This document shows, in pieces, positions 8,767 to 19,374 of a stretch of 29,742 nt of DNA. Source of the stretch: a virus; IMG/VR virus record IMGVR_UViG_3300035180_000530, positions 1 to 29,742 of that record; one strand, given 5' to 3'. Both the position numbers and the translations under genes were made by a program. The first letter of the stretch is position 1. Each line of letters opens with the position of its first letter. The notes beneath the pieces were generated by a model. That model made no database searches. It had not been told where the DNA came from and saw only the letters and a list, made by a program, of their open reading frames with translations.

Positions 8767-10029
8767 TCACGCAAGAATGTCGGCGACCTTTTCAAAAACA
8801 GCACTCAAAATATCCGCCTTCGTCGGATCAAAGTTTACCTGTTGAGCGTTTATGCCACAGACAATCGAACAGTCCAATTTCGGGTCATACACAACCTTTC
8901 CAGCAAGCTCTGCCGTAGAACCCTTAATTCCAGGCAAGAGACGCCTAATGACAGCAGAACCAAGAGCCACTATTACCGCAGGCTTGATAAGCTCTACCTC
9001 TCTGTCGAAAAACCTCGCACATGAGTTAAGCTGCCCATTGCTCAATAACTTGTCAGACTTTTTGGCCTTGACCAGCGTCGTGAAATAGCCCTCCCCTACG
9101 CTCAAACCCGCGTCTTTGATTGCGACTTTGATAAAATCAGCAGCGTCGCCAACCAGCAGTTGATCTTTTGCCTCCTCCTGCCATGTCGGGCAGTCTGTCA
9201 CCACCATGTACTTGACCGTGGACTTGCAGCGAATGGTCGGATGCGGTTGACCGGCCAGGTCACAGTCCTTGCATGACTTGTATTCTTGCGCCAGAGAGAT
9301 AATCTTGGCCCGCAGAAACTTGTCGGACACATCGGTCGTCCTATCTGCCTTCACGGCGTCGATAATCAACCCAGGCATGAATTCTGTCTGGTCACGACGA
9401 CGATCCGGGTGACGTGCGGGTTTCTGACCCTTCTCGACGTTAGCGAAAGCGCCTACCGCATTAAGGTTCTCCACAACGCGCATGTTGACCTTCGAACCGG
9501 GCTGACTTGCTGCCAGAGAGAATTCTTCAAAGGAATCAAAGCGACCCTTGACCGGCGACGAATCGTCCAACCCCCAAACATCTTCCACTGTTCCGTCGCG
9601 CTTTTTCTTTTGTCTCTCAACCTTCCAGTTGCGGTTACGCTCACGCAGTTCCACGATGCGAAGCGCGGTGTTCTCGGAGATACCCCTGACAGCCGAGAAC
9701 GGCGCAAGAATGTGCGCGTCGTCCGGAATAGTGAACTTGTCCGACGACAGGTTGATGTCGGGCGGCAGCACTTCAATGCCACACTCACGCGCATCTTTGA
9801 CCAGTCCAGGCAACTTGTCGTCCTTAACGATGCTCATGCAAGCTGCAAAGTATTCGGCAGGATAATGAACGCGCATATATCCAGTCCAAAAACTTATTAC
9901 TGCATATTCTACAGCGTGTGATTTGTTAAATGAATAGGATGCAAACTTTTCAATCTTATCCCAAAGATTCTCCGCATGTCTCTTGTCCATGCCATCGTTG
10001 ATACGTCGCACTGTCCTGATAGTTGCCAT
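8767..10029 (-). CDS. dnaE: DNA polymerase III alpha (DnaE), third fragment, fused to a UDG-family-4-like domain
   Basis: Carries the fingers part of the replicative polymerase and a fused C-terminal domain (420 aa). Residues 14-70 match the DnaE segment AENLWDKIEKFASYSFNKSHAVEYA...HYPAEYFAA. Residues 85-131 continue DnaE (EVLPPDINLS) and include a helix-hairpin-helix (FSAVRGISENTALRIVEL). From about residue 250 the sequence changes to the family-4 uracil-DNA-glycosylase pattern: SCKDCDL, then MVVTDCPT, LLVGDAADFIKVAI, LNSCARFFDREVELIKPAVIVALGSAV. The usual GExPG motif and the C-terminal His-Pro are not intact, so glycosylase activity is doubtful. The ATG follows AGAGG, and an in-frame TAA lies two codons upstream, so this is a separate translation start. 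DnaE's usual OB-fold end is replaced by this domain. Confidence 0.85.
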   Translation of the reverse strand: MATIRTVRRINDGMDKRHAENLWDKIEKFASYSFNKSHAVEYAVISFWTGYMRVHYPAEYFAACMSIVKDDKLPGLVKDARECGIEVLPPDINLSSDKFTIPDDAHILAPFSAVRGISENTALRIVELRERNRNWKVERQKKKRDGTVEDVWGLDDSSPVKGRFDSFEEFSLAASQPGSKVNMRVVENLNAVGAFANVEKGQKPARHPDRRRDQTEFMPGLIIDAVKADRTTDVSDKFLRAKIISLAQEYKSCKDCDLAGQPHPTIRCKSTVKYMVVTDCPTWQEEAKDQLLVGDAADFIKVAIKDAGLSVGEGYFTTLVKAKKSDKLLSNGQLNSCARFFDREVELIKPAVIVALGSAVIRRLLPGIKGSTAELAGKVVYDPKLDCSIVCGINAQQVNFDPTKADILSAVFEKVADILA

Positions 10030-10745: not shown

Positions 10746-10901
10746 TCAAGCAATTAGTTGAAGATTGATTGGCGTATATCCAAACGATGCGATTTCCTCA
10801 ACCGTAAACTTATCAAGAGACTCCTTAACGGCAAACTTTGCCATTGCATGAACTTTTCCGACAGTGCCATCGCTTAATGTGACTTCGACAAATCCAGCAC
10901 A
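10746..10901 (-). other. Non-DnaE C-terminal tail of middle fragment, possible N-intein remnant
   Basis: The 51 residues starting at a Cys (CAGFVEVTLSDGT, then GKVHAMAKF, ending FTVEEIASFGYTPIN) do not belong to DnaE. A strand-type VTLSDG followed by a His and a later VEEI element recalls the N-terminal splicing blocks of inteins. No matching C-intein precedes the third fragment, which has only about 11 extra residues. It may be a decayed intein half, or an extension acquired with the HNH gene. Confidence 0.4.
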
Positions 10902-12092
10902 AGCTCCATCAACAAAGGCATCTTTCATCTTTGTCATCATTGATAAATCCTTTTTGCCAATGGCTTTTCTCAAGGTGTCAGCTTCAGCCATAGTAAATCC
11001 CGCTAGGTCACGCGCAACTTGCATGACTTGTTCCTGATAAACTAGAACTCCATGAGTTTCACTCAAAGCGCTCATTATCGCTGGATGGTCATAAGATGGA
11101 ACATCTATACCCTGTCTGATTCTGACGTACTGCTCCATTAGGCCAGAATCCATTGGGCCTGGACGATACAGTGCAACAACGGCGACGATATCTTCAAAAG
11201 TAACGGACGAAGTTTTCGACAGAGAGCGCAACAATCCTTTCATGCCTGACGATTCCAGTTGAAAAACTCCTGTTGTATCACCTCTGGAAAAAGCATCCAT
11301 TGTAAGTTTGTCATCTAATGGCAGCTTAAGATAATCTATCGTTATGCCGTGTCTTTCTTTCACATAGGTTCTACAAATGTCCAGAGTATCCAACGTCGAC
11401 AACCCCAATAAGTCCATCTTAATCAAACCAAAACTTTCCACAACTCTTTTATCCCAGTTGACCACCGGCGACCCACCGCGCGTCTCCACGACCGCCCTCT
11501 CAATCAACGGTTCACCCGCCACAATCACACCGGCTGCATGTTGGCTGAACGAACGCATGACTCCTTCGAGCTTGAGTGCATGCTTCCAGATTTCAGGGTT
11601 AGTGTCGCGAAACTTCTCAAGCTCTGGCACCACATTTGCAGACTCGGTAAGCGTGAAGGACTGACCGTGTTCTTTCGGCACCAGTTTCGTTGCCACCAGA
11701 TCCAGCCCATTCATGCCGAATACGCGACCAGCATCACGCAATGCAGACGCCGAAGCCAGCGATGAATAGTTCGAAATGCCCGCGACATGATCCCTGCCGT
11801 ATTTCTCGGTCAGATATTCGACAACGAGATGACGCTTGGAACTCATGAAGTCGAGGTCGGCGTCGGGCAAGTCCAGACGCTCAGGATTGATGAAGCGCTC
11901 GAACAGCAAATTGAAGCGAATAGGATCAACGTCAGTTATGCCAAGCAGATATGCGACTAAACTGCCGCCACAGTTATGAACCGGAATGCCCTGCACGTTA
12001 TACGTGTGCGTATTAGCAATGGTCAAATCATGCACCTTGCCTTTGTAATGCCGCGTCTTTTTACTAACAACCTTAATGCCCGCGTCGCTCAT
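10746..12092 (-). CDS. dnaE: DNA polymerase III alpha (DnaE), middle fragment, with N-terminal C-intein
   Basis: Residues 1-40 are a C-intein ending GIPVHN. Residue 41 (Cys, the +1 extein residue) opens the polymerase sequence CGGSLVAYLLGITDVDP. The catalytic aspartates are present: PDADLDF at residues 76-82 (Asp79, Asp81) and IKMDLLGL with Asp227. Other DnaE motifs include YRPGPMDSGLM and HGVLVYQEQVMQVARDLAGFT. Extein sequence ends near residue 397 (KDAFVDGA); the last 51 residues are foreign to DnaE. The ATG overlaps the endonuclease stop (ATGA), so this piece is probably made by translational coupling. Trans-splicing with the first fragment would give about 738 residues of continuous polymerase. 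Confidence 0.92.
   Translation of the reverse strand: MSDAGIKVVSKKTRHYKGKVHDLTIANTHTYNVQGIPVHNCGGSLVAYLLGITDVDPIRFNLLFERFINPERLDLPDADLDFMSSKRHLVVEYLTEKYGRDHVAGISNYSSLASASALRDAGRVFGMNGLDLVATKLVPKEHGQSFTLTESANVVPELEKFRDTNPEIWKHALKLEGVMRSFSQHAAGVIVAGEPLIERAVVETRGGSPVVNWDKRVVESFGLIKMDLLGLSTLDTLDICRTYVKERHGITIDYLKLPLDDKLTMDAFSRGDTTGVFQLESSGMKGLLRSLSKTSSVTFEDIVAVVALYRPGPMDSGLMEQYVRIRQGIDVPSYDHPAIMSALSETHGVLVYQEQVMQVARDLAGFTMAEADTLRKAIGKKDLSMMTKMKDAFVDGACAGFVEVTLSDGTVGKVHAMAKFAVKESLDKFTVEEIASFGYTPINLQLIA
11973..12092 (-). other. Split intein, C-terminal half (40 aa)
   Basis: The segment MSDAGIKVV...YKGKVHDLTIANTHTYNVQGIPVHN has the block F pattern (VHDLTI..THTYNV) and the block G ending VHN before Cys+1. 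Its length is normal for a naturally split C-intein. The partner N-half ends the first fragment. Confidence 0.92.
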
Positions 12093-13012
12093 TGATATTT
12101 ATCCTCGTCCTGTTTTCTTGCGAAGATTATCTTCGCGCTATGCTTCTTAAACATTGCCACCAGACTTGCGCCTCTAGGCATCTTTACACCCAAAAGTCTC
12201 TCGCTGCTTTTCTCTGTCACTAAGATGATTTTATCAGCGTGACCCAGGCGTACCAAGTCAAGAGCTTGGGAAAGTTTTGCTCTTAACTTATCAATCCTAT
12301 CAACGTGTTTTCCAACGTAGCCACTCTTAACTTCGCACCACCACTTGGCGCCGTCATTAAACAGAATTTCATAATCCACAAAATACCGTCTTGCGCCTTC
12401 AAACTCATATTCGATCACGGGGCCGCGCCTCACCAATTTGACAGTTTCGTTTCGCTCTAGCCCCAACAGTGTTGCCAATTCGTAAGAACTGTCGAACGTT
12501 AGCCATCCCCACTTGGACAAGTAATCGCCAGAAATACCTCTCCCATTCCATGCCTGACGCGCACGAAGCCTCTCACGCACATCATCACGCTTACACGCCG
12601 CAATGACACTTTCGCGCATCGAAGCCAACTTATCGGGGTTGTCAGCCCAAAACTTCGACACGGCGGCGGCATTCTTCGCCTTTTGTTTTGGAAGCGACTG
12701 AATCTTCAATTGCGCCACCGAATTGCGCTTACGCCAACCTTCATCACTGGACGAGACTCTCATCACACACTTTGGACAAAAAGCCCCAGTGACTACCTTT
12801 CTTCTGTTCAGATGCTTGAAATCACTTTCGTGAGTTTCACCACAACTTTCACATTCAAATTGAACGCGAAGAGACTTGCTTGAATACACCGTTTTGTACT
12901 TCAGGTAAAAGTCATAACAAACGGGGTCTTTTGCGAGAATCGCCAACTTCAAATCATCAGGCAGATGATGATGACGCGGATTCAAGCCTTTTAGCGAGTT
13001 TCGATACGTCAT
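12089..13012 (-). CDS. Free-standing endonuclease (zinc finger + PD-(D/E)xK-like) inside the split-intein gap
   Basis: A 307-residue protein encoded between the two intein halves, probably the homing nuclease that created or maintains the fracture. From the chosen start (GAGGA eight bases upstream of ATG 13012) it has a CESC...CPKC zinc finger (Cys 54, 57, 79, 82) and a charged linker. The nuclease-like domain follows: SSYELA with Glu178, YFVDYEILFND with Asp213, and WWCEVKSG with Glu227 and Lys229, the D...ExK signature. A nucleoside-binding-like KIILVTEK strand comes later. An ATG at 13126 would add 38 residues overlapping the N-intein and lacks support. The gene overlaps the first DnaE fragment by 56 bases and the middle fragment by four. 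No LAGLIDADG or GIY-YIG motif is seen. Confidence 0.8.
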   Translation of the reverse strand: MTYRNSLKGLNPRHHHLPDDLKLAILAKDPVCYDFYLKYKTVYSSKSLRVQFECESCGETHESDFKHLNRRKVVTGAFCPKCVMRVSSSDEGWRKRNSVAQLKIQSLPKQKAKNAAAVSKFWADNPDKLASMRESVIAACKRDDVRERLRARQAWNGRGISGDYLSKWGWLTFDSSYELATLLGLERNETVKLVRRGPVIEYEFEGARRYFVDYEILFNDGAKWWCEVKSGYVGKHVDRIDKLRAKLSQALDLVRLGHADKIILVTEKSSERLLGVKMPRGASLVAMFKKHSAKIIFARKQDEDKYQ

Positions 13013-13277
13013 CAAATTCGTCCTCGCCGCACAGCTCTTCCGCGACGACCCATCCTCTGTTTCGAGTGAAGAATTTGTGATCTTTGGTACATTCGATTTT
13101 GACGCCATTGCTAAACTCCAATTCAATTATTTCCTCGTCTCGGTCGAACTCAAGAGTGGCAATTACCTCCTGTGTTGAGCCATCATGCGCCAGAACCTTA
13201 TCGCCGATAGAAAAATTCTCAATGGCTTTAGTCAGTCCTGACTTATCACATACTACGCGACACCCTGGCAAAAAACA
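12957..13277 (-). other. Split intein, N-terminal half (106 aa)
   Basis: It starts CFLPGCRVV, a standard block A. It continues with SIGDKVLAHDG, then IIELEFSNGVKIECTKDHKFFT, where the TKDH is the block B Thr-x-x-His, and ends in an acidic/serine tail. It follows directly after extein GPGRGS. The complementary C-half begins the middle fragment, so splicing would restore GPGRGS-CGGSLVAY, the normal DnaE motif with Cys in place of Ala. Confidence 0.92.
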
Positions 13278-14420
13278 AGAACCTCTTCCTGGACCCACGA
13301 TCACATCATTATTTTTAGCCCACCTTACTAAATCTTCGACCAGAAGAAAGTAACCGGAGAAGCCCATCTTCTTGAGAACGCCAAGTTCGTACTCCAGGCG
13401 CTCTTTGTAGACCGGCATGAGTGAAGCTGGCGGCAGATAACCGAGAACAGGCGTGGTAAAACGGCGTTTCCAGCCCTCGATACACTTTTTGCCGAGCGTG
13501 ACGAACTCATTATCTGCCATCTTAGGCAGACACACTTCCTGCTTCTTGAATTCATAGTTGCACATGCCCGCCAGCACTTCGATGTTTTTGACGCCATTCG
13601 CCCAATGTGCCGGACTTGAAACTTTGTTCCAGGCTGAGACGCGCTTGGCCGCCTCTTTGACGCGCTCAAGCAGGTCTTCTGGCTTGCCGAATGCAAAGTC
13701 CTTGATGAACTGCTTTGGGCGATAAGCAACGCTCATTTGTGTGTTTGTGGTGATACAGTTTAGAACTTCGAGCGTGTCGGCATCGTCGCGCTCTTTGTAG
13801 AATGTTGGATAAGTTACTAGCGTCTTCGCATTCACGTCAGTAGCGGCCTGAATCGCCTTTGCATTCAGCGTGTCGAACAGCGGCGTGTTAATCGGCACTA
13901 GCTCCACGAACGTCTTGTCCCAACCAAACTTTGAGCCGAGCTTTTCGAGAATCGCCAGATGGTCATCGTGATGAAACAGACCAAACATATCGCCAGTCGA
14001 TACCGCAACGCCCTCCAGCGCCAGTACGTCATCCAAGCCACAGCGGGCATGGTAGTAGAAGTATTCCGGCGTCAAGGCGCACGACAGCAGCTTGAGTAAG
14101 GACTTTACGCCAGTCTCGTCGATAGCGTAAACCTTGAGCGCGTAAAAGGGATTAGGCTTTTCCTTTTCACCAGATGCCTTCGATGGCTTGCGATAAGTTG
14201 GATCGTCGTAGACCCATAGACGACAGCCAATGATTGGCTTAATGCCCGCTTTTTTGGCCTTGTTTGAGAAGTCCACCATGCCGTGAAGTGACATTGTATC
14301 CACCAGGGCGACGGACTCGTAACCGAATTCCGTCGCCTTCTCGATGATGTGATCCAATTGCAGCAGCGATTCGCCAATGCTGAAATCGCTCCTTACGGAC
14401 AGCGCGTGATTTATGTTCAT
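12957..14420 (-). CDS. dnaE: DNA polymerase III alpha (DnaE), first fragment, with C-terminal N-intein
   Basis: N-terminal part of the replicative polymerase (487 aa). Residues 1-70 are the PHP domain start (VRSDFSIGES, ALVDTMSLHGMVDFSNKAKKAGIKPIIG). Two PHP histidines of the HxH motif are replaced (ALSVRSD), so the metal site is probably inactive. The polymerase part ends LVEDLVRWAKNNDVIVGPGRGS at residue 381. There the N-intein starts (Cys382). The stop lies inside the downstream endonuclease gene. The ATG overlaps the stop of the 87-aa gene by four bases. No proofreading exonuclease domain is visible. Confidence 0.93.
   Translation of the reverse strand: MNINHALSVRSDFSIGESLLQLDHIIEKATEFGYESVALVDTMSLHGMVDFSNKAKKAGIKPIIGCRLWVYDDPTYRKPSKASGEKEKPNPFYALKVYAIDETGVKSLLKLLSCALTPEYFYYHARCGLDDVLALEGVAVSTGDMFGLFHHDDHLAILEKLGSKFGWDKTFVELVPINTPLFDTLNAKAIQAATDVNAKTLVTYPTFYKERDDADTLEVLNCITTNTQMSVAYRPKQFIKDFAFGKPEDLLERVKEAAKRVSAWNKVSSPAHWANGVKNIEVLAGMCNYEFKKQEVCLPKMADNEFVTLGKKCIEGWKRRFTTPVLGYLPPASLMPVYKERLEYELGVLKKMGFSGYFLLVEDLVRWAKNNDVIVGPGRGSCFLPGCRVVCDKSGLTKAIENFSIGDKVLAHDGSTQEVIATLEFDRDEEIIELEFSNGVKIECTKDHKFFTRNRGWVVAEELCGEDEFDDVSKLAKRLESASSSSA
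13230..13246 (-). promoter_or_regulatory. Recurrent motif copy inside N-intein coding sequence
   Basis: The minus strand reads ATAAGTCA-GGAC-TGACT within codons for DKSGLTK. It matches the consensus exactly, with the same four-base spacer, about 220 bases before the endonuclease start. It may be chance, or an internal site for the endonuclease gene. Confidence 0.35.
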
Positions 14421-16000: not shown

Positions 16001-17176
16001 TCAGCCAAAGATTCTCTGTGCCAAGCCATCGCAGACCTCGCGGTCGATCTTGGACAGCTTATTGATGAAGGACAACGTAATGCCCTGACGAAAGCTGCCG
16101 CGCTTGACGCCGATCTTCGCGGCGTAGATTAAAGTACGCGGAGAAATCACGTCGCTGATTTTAGCGCCGTCGTATGCTTCGCGCACCAAGCCCGCAAACT
16201 CAACCATCTTGTCGGCGTCCTCTTTGACCAGACCGACGCGGTTTTGAAGAATCTGCGACTCAGCGGCTTTCTTCATGTATTGCTTGTGGATCACCATGCC
16301 GAAGCGGTCGTAGTTGGCCGCATTCTGAATGTTGGTGCCTTGATACAGCCCAGTCTCGTCGCCAGAGCCGTTGGTGTTGCCCGTCGCCACGAAACGAAAG
16401 TTCGGGTGCGGCTTGATGATACGGTTCGCGGCATCAGCCTCTTTAATCATCAATGGCTTACCTTCAAGAACGGCCTGATAGACAGAAGAGACGGACGGCA
16501 GCATGAAGTCGTATTCGTCAGCGCTATACATCCAGCCGTTAATCATCGCCAACGGTAGCGGCCCCAGTTCGAACACGGTATGACCGCCCTTCACGGTCCA
16601 CTGACCAACGATGTGGCTTTCTTCCGTGTTGACCGTGTGCTGAACGCGCATAAACTCACGCCCGGTACGCGCCGCAATCTGCTCAAACAGTTCAGACTTA
16701 CCCGAACCCTTGTGGCCCCAGACGTAGCAAGGAATGTTCAATTCCAGCGCCAGAATCACATTCTTTAGTTCGTCGATGTCATACACGTAGTCATCAGATG
16801 CCGCCGGCACCATGTCGGGGAAATCGCCCGATGTAATCACGGAAATGAGGATGGGGTCGCCCTTGCTGGACTTCGCGGCCTTAACGTTGCCCAAGTTAAA
16901 GACTTCATGCAACGCCTTCTTGACTACCGAACCACTCGGCATCAGTTTAGTCACAGACGCGGCGGTGCCAGCCATTTCCAGCATGCGCTCTTCTGATACA
17001 GCTTTGGCGGCGCGTTTTTCTGCGAGTTTTCGCTTCGCCATTTCAGACATCAGCGGCGCTTCGGGAAACTTGGCGATGTAACTATTCAACGTTTCTTCGG
17101 GATGGTCATTCTTAAGGTGCAACTGCACGGAATGAATTTGAGCATTGCACAATTGGCAAGTTATTTTGTCGGTCAT
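16001..17176 (-). CDS. CobS-like MoxR-family AAA+ ATPase with N-terminal zinc finger
   Basis: AAA+ ATPase related to the cobaltochelatase CobS subunit; in phages its true job is unknown. The protein (391 aa) starts with a zinc-finger-like ITCQLCNAQIHSVQLHLKNDH, followed by a ROS/MucR-like pattern (ETLNSYIAKFPEAPLMSE). The ATPase has Walker A GHKGSGKSE near residues 155-162, a Walker B-like MYSADEYDF and sensor-type FVATGNTNGSGDETG. ATG 17176 is preferred over 17179 because GGAGG is five bases away instead of two. Downstream of the CobT-like gene, it forms the usual MoxR + VWA pair. Its promoter gap contains a motif copy. Confidence 0.88.
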   Translation of the reverse strand: MTDKITCQLCNAQIHSVQLHLKNDHPEETLNSYIAKFPEAPLMSEMAKRKLAEKRAAKAVSEERMLEMAGTAASVTKLMPSGSVVKKALHEVFNLGNVKAAKSSKGDPILISVITSGDFPDMVPAASDDYVYDIDELKNVILALELNIPCYVWGHKGSGKSELFEQIAARTGREFMRVQHTVNTEESHIVGQWTVKGGHTVFELGPLPLAMINGWMYSADEYDFMLPSVSSVYQAVLEGKPLMIKEADAANRIIKPHPNFRFVATGNTNGSGDETGLYQGTNIQNAANYDRFGMVIHKQYMKKAAESQILQNRVGLVKEDADKMVEFAGLVREAYDGAKISDVISPRTLIYAAKIGVKRGSFRQGITLSFINKLSKIDREVCDGLAQRIFG

Positions 17177-17254
17177 CATTACCTCCTTGAAAAAACTTAA
17201 AATGCAGCATTGCTGCGACAGAACAGATATTAAAGAAAGTCATCAGGAAACACA

Positions 17255-17271
17255 AGTCACCGATGACTTAT
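17255..17271 (-). promoter_or_regulatory. Recurrent motif copy upstream of CobS-like gene
   Basis: The minus strand reads ATAAGTCA-TCGG-TGACT, 79 bases before the ATG. No -10 hexamer follows. The rest of the 152-base gap (17177-17328) holds the SD and no gene. Confidence 0.55.
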
Positions 17272-17328
17272 TCTTACAGATTGCCTATTGCCTAAACCGA
17301 AAGCGTTTTGTTAATAGCCCGCCTCTTG

Positions 17329-19374
17329 TTAGCCTCGCGTCAACAAAAGGTGCTTCAGTTCACGGACGACACGATCCGGCAATTCACTGACATCGTTGAT
17401 GACCAAGTTCTTTGGATAGAACTTTCGTACTTCATCCGTCATGATGCCAATGCCGACGATATTGATACCTGTCTTAGCAATGTCTCCAACCACCTTTTTC
17501 AAGTGTGTGGCGAGTGTATACGTGTCACCGTTCGCGTTTGGAGCGCCATCAGACAGCACAATCATCACTTTGCCAGCTTCGCGGCGGGCAAGCAGACGCC
17601 TAGCAGCCACTTCGAGGCATTCGCCGTCAATGTTATTGCGCAAGATGCGCGAGTTTGGCAACCAACCGAAGCGTTCCTTCACGTCCGTTTTAAGACGCTC
17701 GTTAAAGCCCTTGAGAATAGGCATGTAGAGACTTTCGACGCGAGTAAATGACCGCCCAATCTTCCGTATCTCTTCGTTGAGCGTCTCATAATCGACGGCT
17801 GGCTGACCCGTGGTGAAGCAGATCACTTCGTTCGAAATGCCGATGCGCTCAAGCACGGACGACAATGCATACGCAGCTTGCGTAGCCAGATGAACTTTTG
17901 CGCCTCTCATTGAGCCGGAGGCATCGACGACAAGCTCGACAGCCACATCCTTGCTCGTGGACTCCTGGCGCCTGCGAAATACGCGACCATCATCTACCGC
18001 GAGACGCGCGAGGTTTGCGGCATGCAGTCGGCCAGAGCGACGGCCCGCTTCCCATGTCGCCAACGAACGCGCGGCAATGGCGCGTTCCAAATCCTTCTGA
18101 AGCGGACCGACCATGTGGTCAACCTTGTCGGAGAGTTCGACCAACATGGCTGAATCGTACCCGCTGCCAATCTTGAGCGGCTCGACGATATCGCCCTCTT
18201 TGGTATAGACCAGATATGAGGACTCTTTTGCCGCGACCGATGCGGCGTTGGAAATAATGCTGCTCAAGGCACTATCAAAGCCATTCTTGTTCTCCTTGTC
18301 GATTTCGGCCCATACAGCTCCAGTATCGCCCGTTTCGAATTTAGTGCCTTGCGCACCTTCGCCGTCGCCACCATCGCCACCACCATCGCCACCACCATCG
18401 CCTTCACCATCGCCTTCACCATCGCCTTCGCCTTCATCAGAACTTTCTTCTTCCGATTCATTCTCGTCTTCGTCTTCGCCGGCGTCTTCTTTTTCGCTTT
18501 CATCCTCTTTCTTTTCGGACTTATCACCCTCGCCCTCGCCCTTTTCATCGGACTCCTTATCCGGTTTCGCTTCAGCTTCGGACTCAGACTCTTCAGTCTC
18601 TTCGGACTTAGAAGCGCCCTTCTTGTCTTTGGACTTCTTCTCGCCCTTCTTTGACTTGCCCTTGCTGGTCTTGGCTTCGCCCTTCTCTTTACCATCGTCG
18701 TCACCCTCTTTATCAGAAGGCTTCTCGCCCTTGCTATTTTCGCCGGAACGCAGACGACTTTCGATTTCTTTAGCCAAGTCAAGACAGGCTTGCGTCGAGC
18801 TGGCCGCTTCGATCTGCGGCTCCAGGTCGGCGATCTTGTCATAGATACCTTGAACGATATGCATCTTGTCTTTCATGTACTCCTTAAAGACGAACTGACC
18901 AGCCATTGCGCGAATAAGCGGCACCATCAACACGGCGATCACCTTATTAGCATCACCGGCGGCGGCGGCCTCTTGCATCATTGGCGTGCTATATTTGTCG
19001 AGAAAGAACTTGCCAGTTACAGATAGGTTGTGACCTGAACCCGTGAAGCGCTGCGCCATCGCCTTTTCGATACGCGCGTCTTCGAGCATATTGAGCATCG
19101 ACTTAGCGCCGATCTTCTCAGCTTCTCCGATCAACGTGAAGTCCGAAAACATGATGTGCGCGACCTCGTGATCCAAGAAACCTTGAATTGCCATGCACAA
19201 TTCTTCAGTGGCGTTATCCGGTAGGTACGGCAGATTGACAACAGTCGGACGACCCTTGTGATCGCACTTCACGTAAGCGTTAATTCCACGCTGAGTTACC
19301 GTGATTCCCTTGCCAGAAAGCATTTGAGTTATTTTCACAACCGCATCGCGGAGCAACATTACACGTTCATTCAT
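17329..19374 (-). CDS. CobT-like VWA-domain protein with zincin-like motif and charged low-complexity linker
   Basis: Partner of the CobS-like ATPase, probably part of a MoxR/VWA remodelling machine. The protein (681 aa) has an HEVAH motif at residues 69-73 (a HExxH zincin-type motif seen in phage CobT-like proteins). A very charged Lys/Glu/Ser/Gly linker runs from about residue 211 to 341, including GDGEGDG repeats. The C-terminal VWA domain has the MIDAS motif DASGS at 484-488 and a later LSDGAPN. CobT's role in cobalt insertion is not expected in a phage. The SD is GAGGGG. A motif copy abuts that SD. The repetitive linker makes long antisense frames that are not genes. Confidence 0.9.
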   Translation of the reverse strand: MNERVMLLRDAVVKITQMLSGKGITVTQRGINAYVKCDHKGRPTVVNLPYLPDNATEELCMAIQGFLDHEVAHIMFSDFTLIGEAEKIGAKSMLNMLEDARIEKAMAQRFTGSGHNLSVTGKFFLDKYSTPMMQEAAAAGDANKVIAVLMVPLIRAMAGQFVFKEYMKDKMHIVQGIYDKIADLEPQIEAASSTQACLDLAKEIESRLRSGENSKGEKPSDKEGDDDGKEKGEAKTSKGKSKKGEKKSKDKKGASKSEETEESESEAEAKPDKESDEKGEGEGDKSEKKEDESEKEDAGEDEDENESEEESSDEGEGDGEGDGEGDGGGDGGGDGGDGEGAQGTKFETGDTGAVWAEIDKENKNGFDSALSSIISNAASVAAKESSYLVYTKEGDIVEPLKIGSGYDSAMLVELSDKVDHMVGPLQKDLERAIAARSLATWEAGRRSGRLHAANLARLAVDDGRVFRRRQESTSKDVAVELVVDASGSMRGAKVHLATQAAYALSSVLERIGISNEVICFTTGQPAVDYETLNEEIRKIGRSFTRVESLYMPILKGFNERLKTDVKERFGWLPNSRILRNNIDGECLEVAARRLLARREAGKVMIVLSDGAPNANGDTYTLATHLKKVVGDIAKTGINIVGIGIMTDEVRKFYPKNLVINDVSELPDRVVRELKHLLLTRG

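Follow-up and report, generated by a model that had tools for sequence, protein, structure and literature searches.

A probable mobile split-intein unit fractures the family-C replicative polymerase gene of a phage

In fractured genes, reportedly described by Dassa et al. in 2009 (NAR 37:2560; cited in PMC3229294 and PMC3653736), a split intein is said to interrupt the gene, with an independent endonuclease ORF lodged between the two halves; they are said to occur mainly in phages, and the endonuclease is reportedly Vsr-like in about half of the cases. Naturally split inteins are also found in phage family-B polymerases, namely Aes123 PolB1 and CP21 PolB1 (PMC12707363), and Aeh1 NrdA functions in pieces, as does the product of gene 43, likewise split, in Aeromonas phage 25 (PMC2988022). 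Here we analyzed the dnaE gene, encoding a family-C replicative polymerase (Pol III alpha), in the IMG/VR viral record IMGVR_UViG_3300035180_000530, positions 1 to 29,742 (the window, that is, the whole stretch of 29,742 nucleotides that was analyzed). We consider it highly probable that this gene is fractured by a mobile unit of a class-1 split intein and an endonuclease-type gene, that its product is rejoined by protein trans-splicing, and that it bears a second, relic break.

The dnaE gene lies on the minus strand and is spread over three open reading frames (ORFs), with two endonuclease-type ORFs interspersed and a Shine-Dalgarno-like motif before the start of every ORF of the region. An earlier sequence-only reading had recognized the break by the intein and counted two polymerase pieces; there are three, because a second break, with an HNH gene, lies between 10749 and 10029. 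Lengths below are in amino acids (aa).

12957-14420, minus strand: first dnaE ORF (N-extein ending in IVGPGRGS, then the N-intein)
13278..14420, minus strand: DnaE N-extein, 381 aa, with the PHP domain and the start of the polymerase core; C-terminal GPGRGS
12960..13277, minus strand: N-intein (IntN), 106 aa, CFLPGCRVV ... TKDHKFF; net charge -9
12089..13012, minus strand: intervening endonuclease-type ORF, 307 aa, ATG start at 13012
10746-12092, minus strand: second dnaE ORF (C-intein, middle extein and tail)
11973..12092, minus strand: C-intein (IntC), 40 aa, ending in KVHDLTIANTHTYNVQGIPVHN; net charge +4
10902..11972, minus strand: DnaE middle extein, 357 aa, with Cys+1 GGSLVAYLLG, PDADLDF and the fingers
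10749..10901, minus strand: 51-aa tail after FVDGA, beginning CAGFVEVTLSDGTVGKVHAMAKF; resembles Hint block B but lacks splicing residues
9956..10693, minus strand: 245-aa HNH endonuclease ORF located at the second break (Pfam HNH_3, 1.2e-10)
8767..10029, minus strand: DnaE C-terminal piece, 420 aa, with SFNKSH, HhH and a fused uracil-DNA-glycosylase-like domain

The N-extein matched Pfam PHP (3.7e-19), DNA_pol3_alpha (1e-16) and PHROG_13169, and the middle extein matched DNA_pol3_alpha (1.3e-53) and the finger domain (1.5e-53). The C-terminal piece, in which Pfam recognized the HhH motif and the glycosylase-like domain, begins at a separate start preceded by a Shine-Dalgarno motif.

At the first break, GPGRGS/CGGS, the insertion lies exactly between the Ser codon and the +1 codon. 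IntN opens with Cys (C382) immediately after GPGRGS and carries the block B motif TKDH, and IntC terminates in GIPVHN, followed by Cys+1 and GGSLVAYLLG; the residues expected of a class-1 intein (C382, TKDH, VHN and C+1) are present both in the window and in the copies from Acinetobacter baumannii (A. baumannii). Taken singly, the window halves fell below the cut-off of Pfam Intein_splicing (gathering score 35.8). Joined in order, they scored 42.1 bits (E=9.8e-11), and the joined A. baumannii halves reached 47.3 bits, also above the cut-off. Against the PDB, the joined window halves matched inteins, with the split intein NrdJ-1 as the top match (E=4.7e-7). Since the joined halves clear the gathering score and NrdJ-1 is the top structure, the intein match is not due to chance. 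The net charges of IntN and IntC are -9/+4 in the window, -16/+3 in A. baumannii and -11/+3 in Npu, and opposite charges on the halves are the electrostatic capture pattern of split inteins (PMC12707363).

The halves stand on separate ORFs in every copy read, and no contiguous version of the GPGRGS-site element was found in the viral or genome collections scanned. A pattern scan of the genome collection for HN-x-GGSLVAY returned two matches, which were chance matches outside DnaE. Together with the clean empty sites and the horizontal movement described below, the score of the joined halves confirms, at the level of sequence, a predicted naturally split class-1 intein interrupting dnaE where the sequence-only reading had placed it; the lengths and motifs of both halves agree with the ORF translations, and the proposed nucleophiles Cys382, Asn40 and Cys+1 hold. 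The site also differs, as had been stated, from that of the cyanobacterial split DnaE intein directly before CFNKSH; the corresponding SFNKSH of the window is indeed intact, but it lies on the third ORF (8767-10029).

In more than 70 relatives (those cited individually carry L numbers), a single codon separates the N-extein from the middle extein. The +1 residue at these empty sites is Val in 70, Ser in 2 and Asp in 1, whereas it is always Cys in intein alleles. The two Ser alleles belong to the nearest relatives of the window, L002 and L083, and their AGT codon is one base from TGT. The arrangement is not confined to this phage; we found the same three-ORF layout, with the endonuclease-type ORF between the halves, in 23 A. 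baumannii records, which are plasmids of 80-145 kb with phage-type gene content (PLSDB rep_cluster_718 where read). In the A. baumannii plasmids L091-L096, the dnaE fragments are labelled as hypothetical or PHP-domain proteins, several are unlisted, and the inteins have no annotation.

Comparison of close siblings revealed different states of the two breaks: L092 has both the intein and the HNH break, pABTJ2 and L093 have the HNH break only, and pRBH2-4 and L094 have the intein only. Therefore, the breaks have been gained or lost independently. Between the near-identical L092 (with intein) and L093 (without), junction-adjacent differences occur only at -4..-2, 0..+2 and +5. The window and L097 differ at 5 of 1305 positions within the unit (0.38%) but at 80 of 1743 in the adjoining exteins (4.6%; Fisher p=1.6e-14), and because the unit is near-identical while its flanks are divergent, the intein and the ORF move as one unit. 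In an N-extein tree built by a quick method, the intein label was patchy, requiring at least 2 changes on well-supported branches. These sequence patterns establish that the unit has moved horizontally between phages.

The amino acid identities between the window and A. baumannii are 56% for the N-extein, 59% for IntN, 69% for IntC and 68% for the middle extein, so the intein halves are conserved on a par with the exteins. The synonymous rate (dS) far exceeded the nonsynonymous rate (dN) where estimable (omega 0.17 and 0.09), dS being saturated in 3 of the 5 parts, for which no dN/dS is given. By these alignments, the split state has been retained over a long divergence with the splicing residues intact. 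The motif GPGRGS.GGS, which we take to be the nucleotide-binding region of the palm, is invariant or nearly so across the alignment of relatives and aligns with GPGRGSAAGS of Thermus Pol III alpha. Because the middle chain carries the conserved acidic residues of PDADLDF and the N chain carries the PHP domain, no single fragment holds the whole core. We infer from this anatomy that splicing would be needed for polymerase function.

The halves might instead have decayed and ceased to splice, leaving a polymerase of three non-covalent pieces, if it works, or a pseudogene. Enzymes encoded by genes in pieces and active without splicing do exist, such as Aeh1 NrdA and phage 25 gene 43 (PMC2988022), and the second break in the window dnaE is seemingly of the non-splicing kind. 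However, no splicing residue has been lost in either of two lineages with largely saturated synonymous sites, the halves are conserved as well as the exteins, Cys+1 occurs in all intein alleles and in none of the empty ones, and the break falls within a stretch of the polymerase core that is among its best conserved. We therefore regard decay as improbable.

The position between the intein halves is occupied by a separate, conserved ORF, as the sequence-only reading had claimed; ORF 12089-13126 (minus strand) gives 345 aa from a TTG at 13126 and 307 aa from the ATG at 13012, the latter being the likely start, with a GAGGA Shine-Dalgarno motif. Its product has a CxxC zinc-finger-like N part and, by eye, a PD-(D/E)XK-like pattern (VDYEI...CEVKSG). 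It matched PHROG_33911 (2.8e-59), and its identity to the A. baumannii counterpart is 38%; part by part, the layout is shared at 38-69% identity. Most likely, this protein would cut intein-less dnaE alleles, into which the unit is then copied. A degenerate scan with the alignment of the two endonuclease sequences found no further relatives.

The overlap of the ORFs and the location of the endonuclease-type gene, at the usual position of an intein endonuclease, would also suit ribosomal frameshifting that fuses three ORFs, so that a single intein containing the endonuclease as an internal domain would splice in cis. Such a fusion is very unlikely because the two lineages do not share their frame steps (+1 then -1 for the window, but +1 twice for A. 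baumannii); moreover, every window ORF begins at a separate start with a Shine-Dalgarno motif. An assembly or sequencing artefact, conceivable for one metagenomic contig, is already refuted by independent records, namely a second contig with the unit at 99.6% and clearly different flanks and the diverged version in 23 plasmid records from isolates. Removal of the insert from RNA by a self-splicing intron has a negligible probability: endonuclease-bearing introns are common in phages, but no Rfam intron matched the window stretch or its relatives, and the insert ends encode conserved intein blocks.

In the trans-splicing mechanism that we favor, IntN, carried by the N-terminal fragment, and IntC, carried by the middle one, would bind via their opposite charges and fold into a Hint domain, which would excise itself and join residue 381 to +1. 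The product would be a 789-aa chain (381+408) containing GPGRGSCGGS; it has this length because the 51-aa tail remains on it, and the product of about 738 aa predicted by the sequence-only reading gives way to this chain plus a separate one of 420 aa. The polymerase would thus stay in two chains after splicing, with the 420-aa piece as a separate subunit assembling non-covalently, and the second break (tail, HNH gene and C-terminal ORF) would be older than the intein break.

Several points weigh against this overall account. The 30-kb contig is a genome fragment, and a second polymerase may lie elsewhere in the genome. The intervening ORF is assigned as a putative endonuclease by its motif and position: no Pfam family, Vsr included, matched it at E<=0.1, a PDB search with the protein gave no match, and its AlphaFold model (two sequences; mean pLDDT, the predicted local distance difference test, of 44) was unusable. 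Finally, the non-covalent assembly of the 420-aa piece is argued from the precedent of other enzymes in pieces.

At the second break, the tail extends for about 45 aa downstream of FVDGA, has the consensus AGxVEVELEDGTxxxVHRxxKFxCxDGxxRTVEEA and is terminated by a stop. It is also present in L002, L017, L036, L045, L075, L089 and A. baumannii, and in relatives an HNH or NUMOD4 gene comes after the stop, with a restarting ORF (MKIKSI..L.DGM) after that; in SSU5, the tail is in frame within a continuous dnaE. A pattern scan for the tail gave matches in dnaE only, and the tail contained no splicing nucleophile, no TxxH and no HN/+1. Its profile matched DnaE inteins first in the PDB (best E=0.0067; 7 of the 8 top rows), and hhalign against intein N-halves gave a probability of 67%, in a comparison using profile A3, which includes gp41-1 and Npu intein sequences entered by hand. 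A PDB search with profile A3 was left unused as circular, these inteins being inside the profile. As an ordinary Pfam domain, the tail gave weak, scattered matches only.

For the A. baumannii protein that lacks the intein (N, middle and tail), AlphaFold gave a model (pLDDT 89.7) with the Pol III alpha fold. Foldseek aligned it with the Npu DnaE intein over 42 columns (1.8 A, 28% identity, E=0.13), an alignment placed on the tail by identity count, as no other part fits; VIA-align listed no intein on the 784-aa model, a weak test for a 45-residue part. The tail is probably a splice-dead intein relic, a Hint fragment that is block-B-like in sequence and predicted fold. It is a doubtful but conceivable extension that the tail strands pair with the N-terminal strand of the 420-aa chain (MKIKSI..L..DG), gluing the subunits, with SSU5 having re-fused the gene. 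If so, an intein would have lost splicing and turned into an assembly module.

A third insertion site was found in L083, whose N-extein is 97% identical to that of the window and whose GPGRGS site is empty. At L083:9849-11041, a different split intein (IntN 107 aa, IntC 38 aa) interrupts dnaE at VFQFES/CGMK; its joined halves scored 62.7 bits to Intein_splicing and are separated by an HNH-type ORF (HHKDHNREN motif). The charges of these halves, +5/-11, are reversed relative to the window intein. A scan for inteins at the FQFES site found L083 and L122 only, plus one chance match.

Two features of the surroundings were also recorded. A family-4 uracil-DNA-glycosylase-like domain terminates the C-terminal DnaE piece (8767-10029; Arch_udg 1.2e-11), and the same feature appears in the dnaE annotation of RHEph10. 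A CobS/CobT-like pair (MoxR-type ATPase and VWA-like protein) adjoins dnaE at 16001-19374, and such a pair is also beside dnaE in nickie, SSU5 and the A. baumannii phage-plasmids.

With this locus, the set of phage enzymes encoded by split-intein fractured genes would gain a family-C replicative polymerase. One gene pool holds an apparently active split intein, a reversed-charge split intein elsewhere in dnaE and a seemingly dead relic, three states that bear on intein splitting, decay and gene breakage. Because complete plasmid records include matched siblings with and without the intein, homing and the cost of splicing can be tested directly, and the window intein halves are new candidate protein-ligation tools.

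Among the papers available, which did not include the 2009 account of fractured genes, we found none on a split-intein site at GPGRGS of dnaE. Fractured genes and split inteins of phage polymerases are known kinds, whereas this site, host enzyme and endonuclease appear new. The sequence-only reading was right that a phage polymerase is split by an intein but overstated its rarity, as PolB of T4-like phages is a known case (PMC12707363). Like Aes123 and CP21 PolB1, the window has a phage replicative polymerase interrupted by a naturally split intein; those are family-B polymerases with a cysteine-less intein, whereas this is Pol III alpha with Cys1 and Cys+1. The cyanobacterial Ssp and Npu DnaE inteins share the enzyme family, the canonical split position and a negative IntN with a positive IntC, but they sit before CFNKSH instead of at GPGRGS/GGS, and their halves are in distant genes with no endonuclease between, whereas the window intein is mobile. 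The second break resembles Aeh1 nrdA/mobE and phage 25 gene 43, in which an essential phage gene is interrupted by a gene for a homing endonuclease (PMC2988022), except that the upstream fragment in the window ends in a Hint-like relic. As in the fractured genes, a split intein interrupts the gene of a DNA-metabolism enzyme, and its halves flank an independent ORF; the differences noted here are a family-C dnaE host gene broken at GPGRGS, a further, probably relic break within that gene and an endonuclease-type protein that matches neither Vsr nor another Pfam family.
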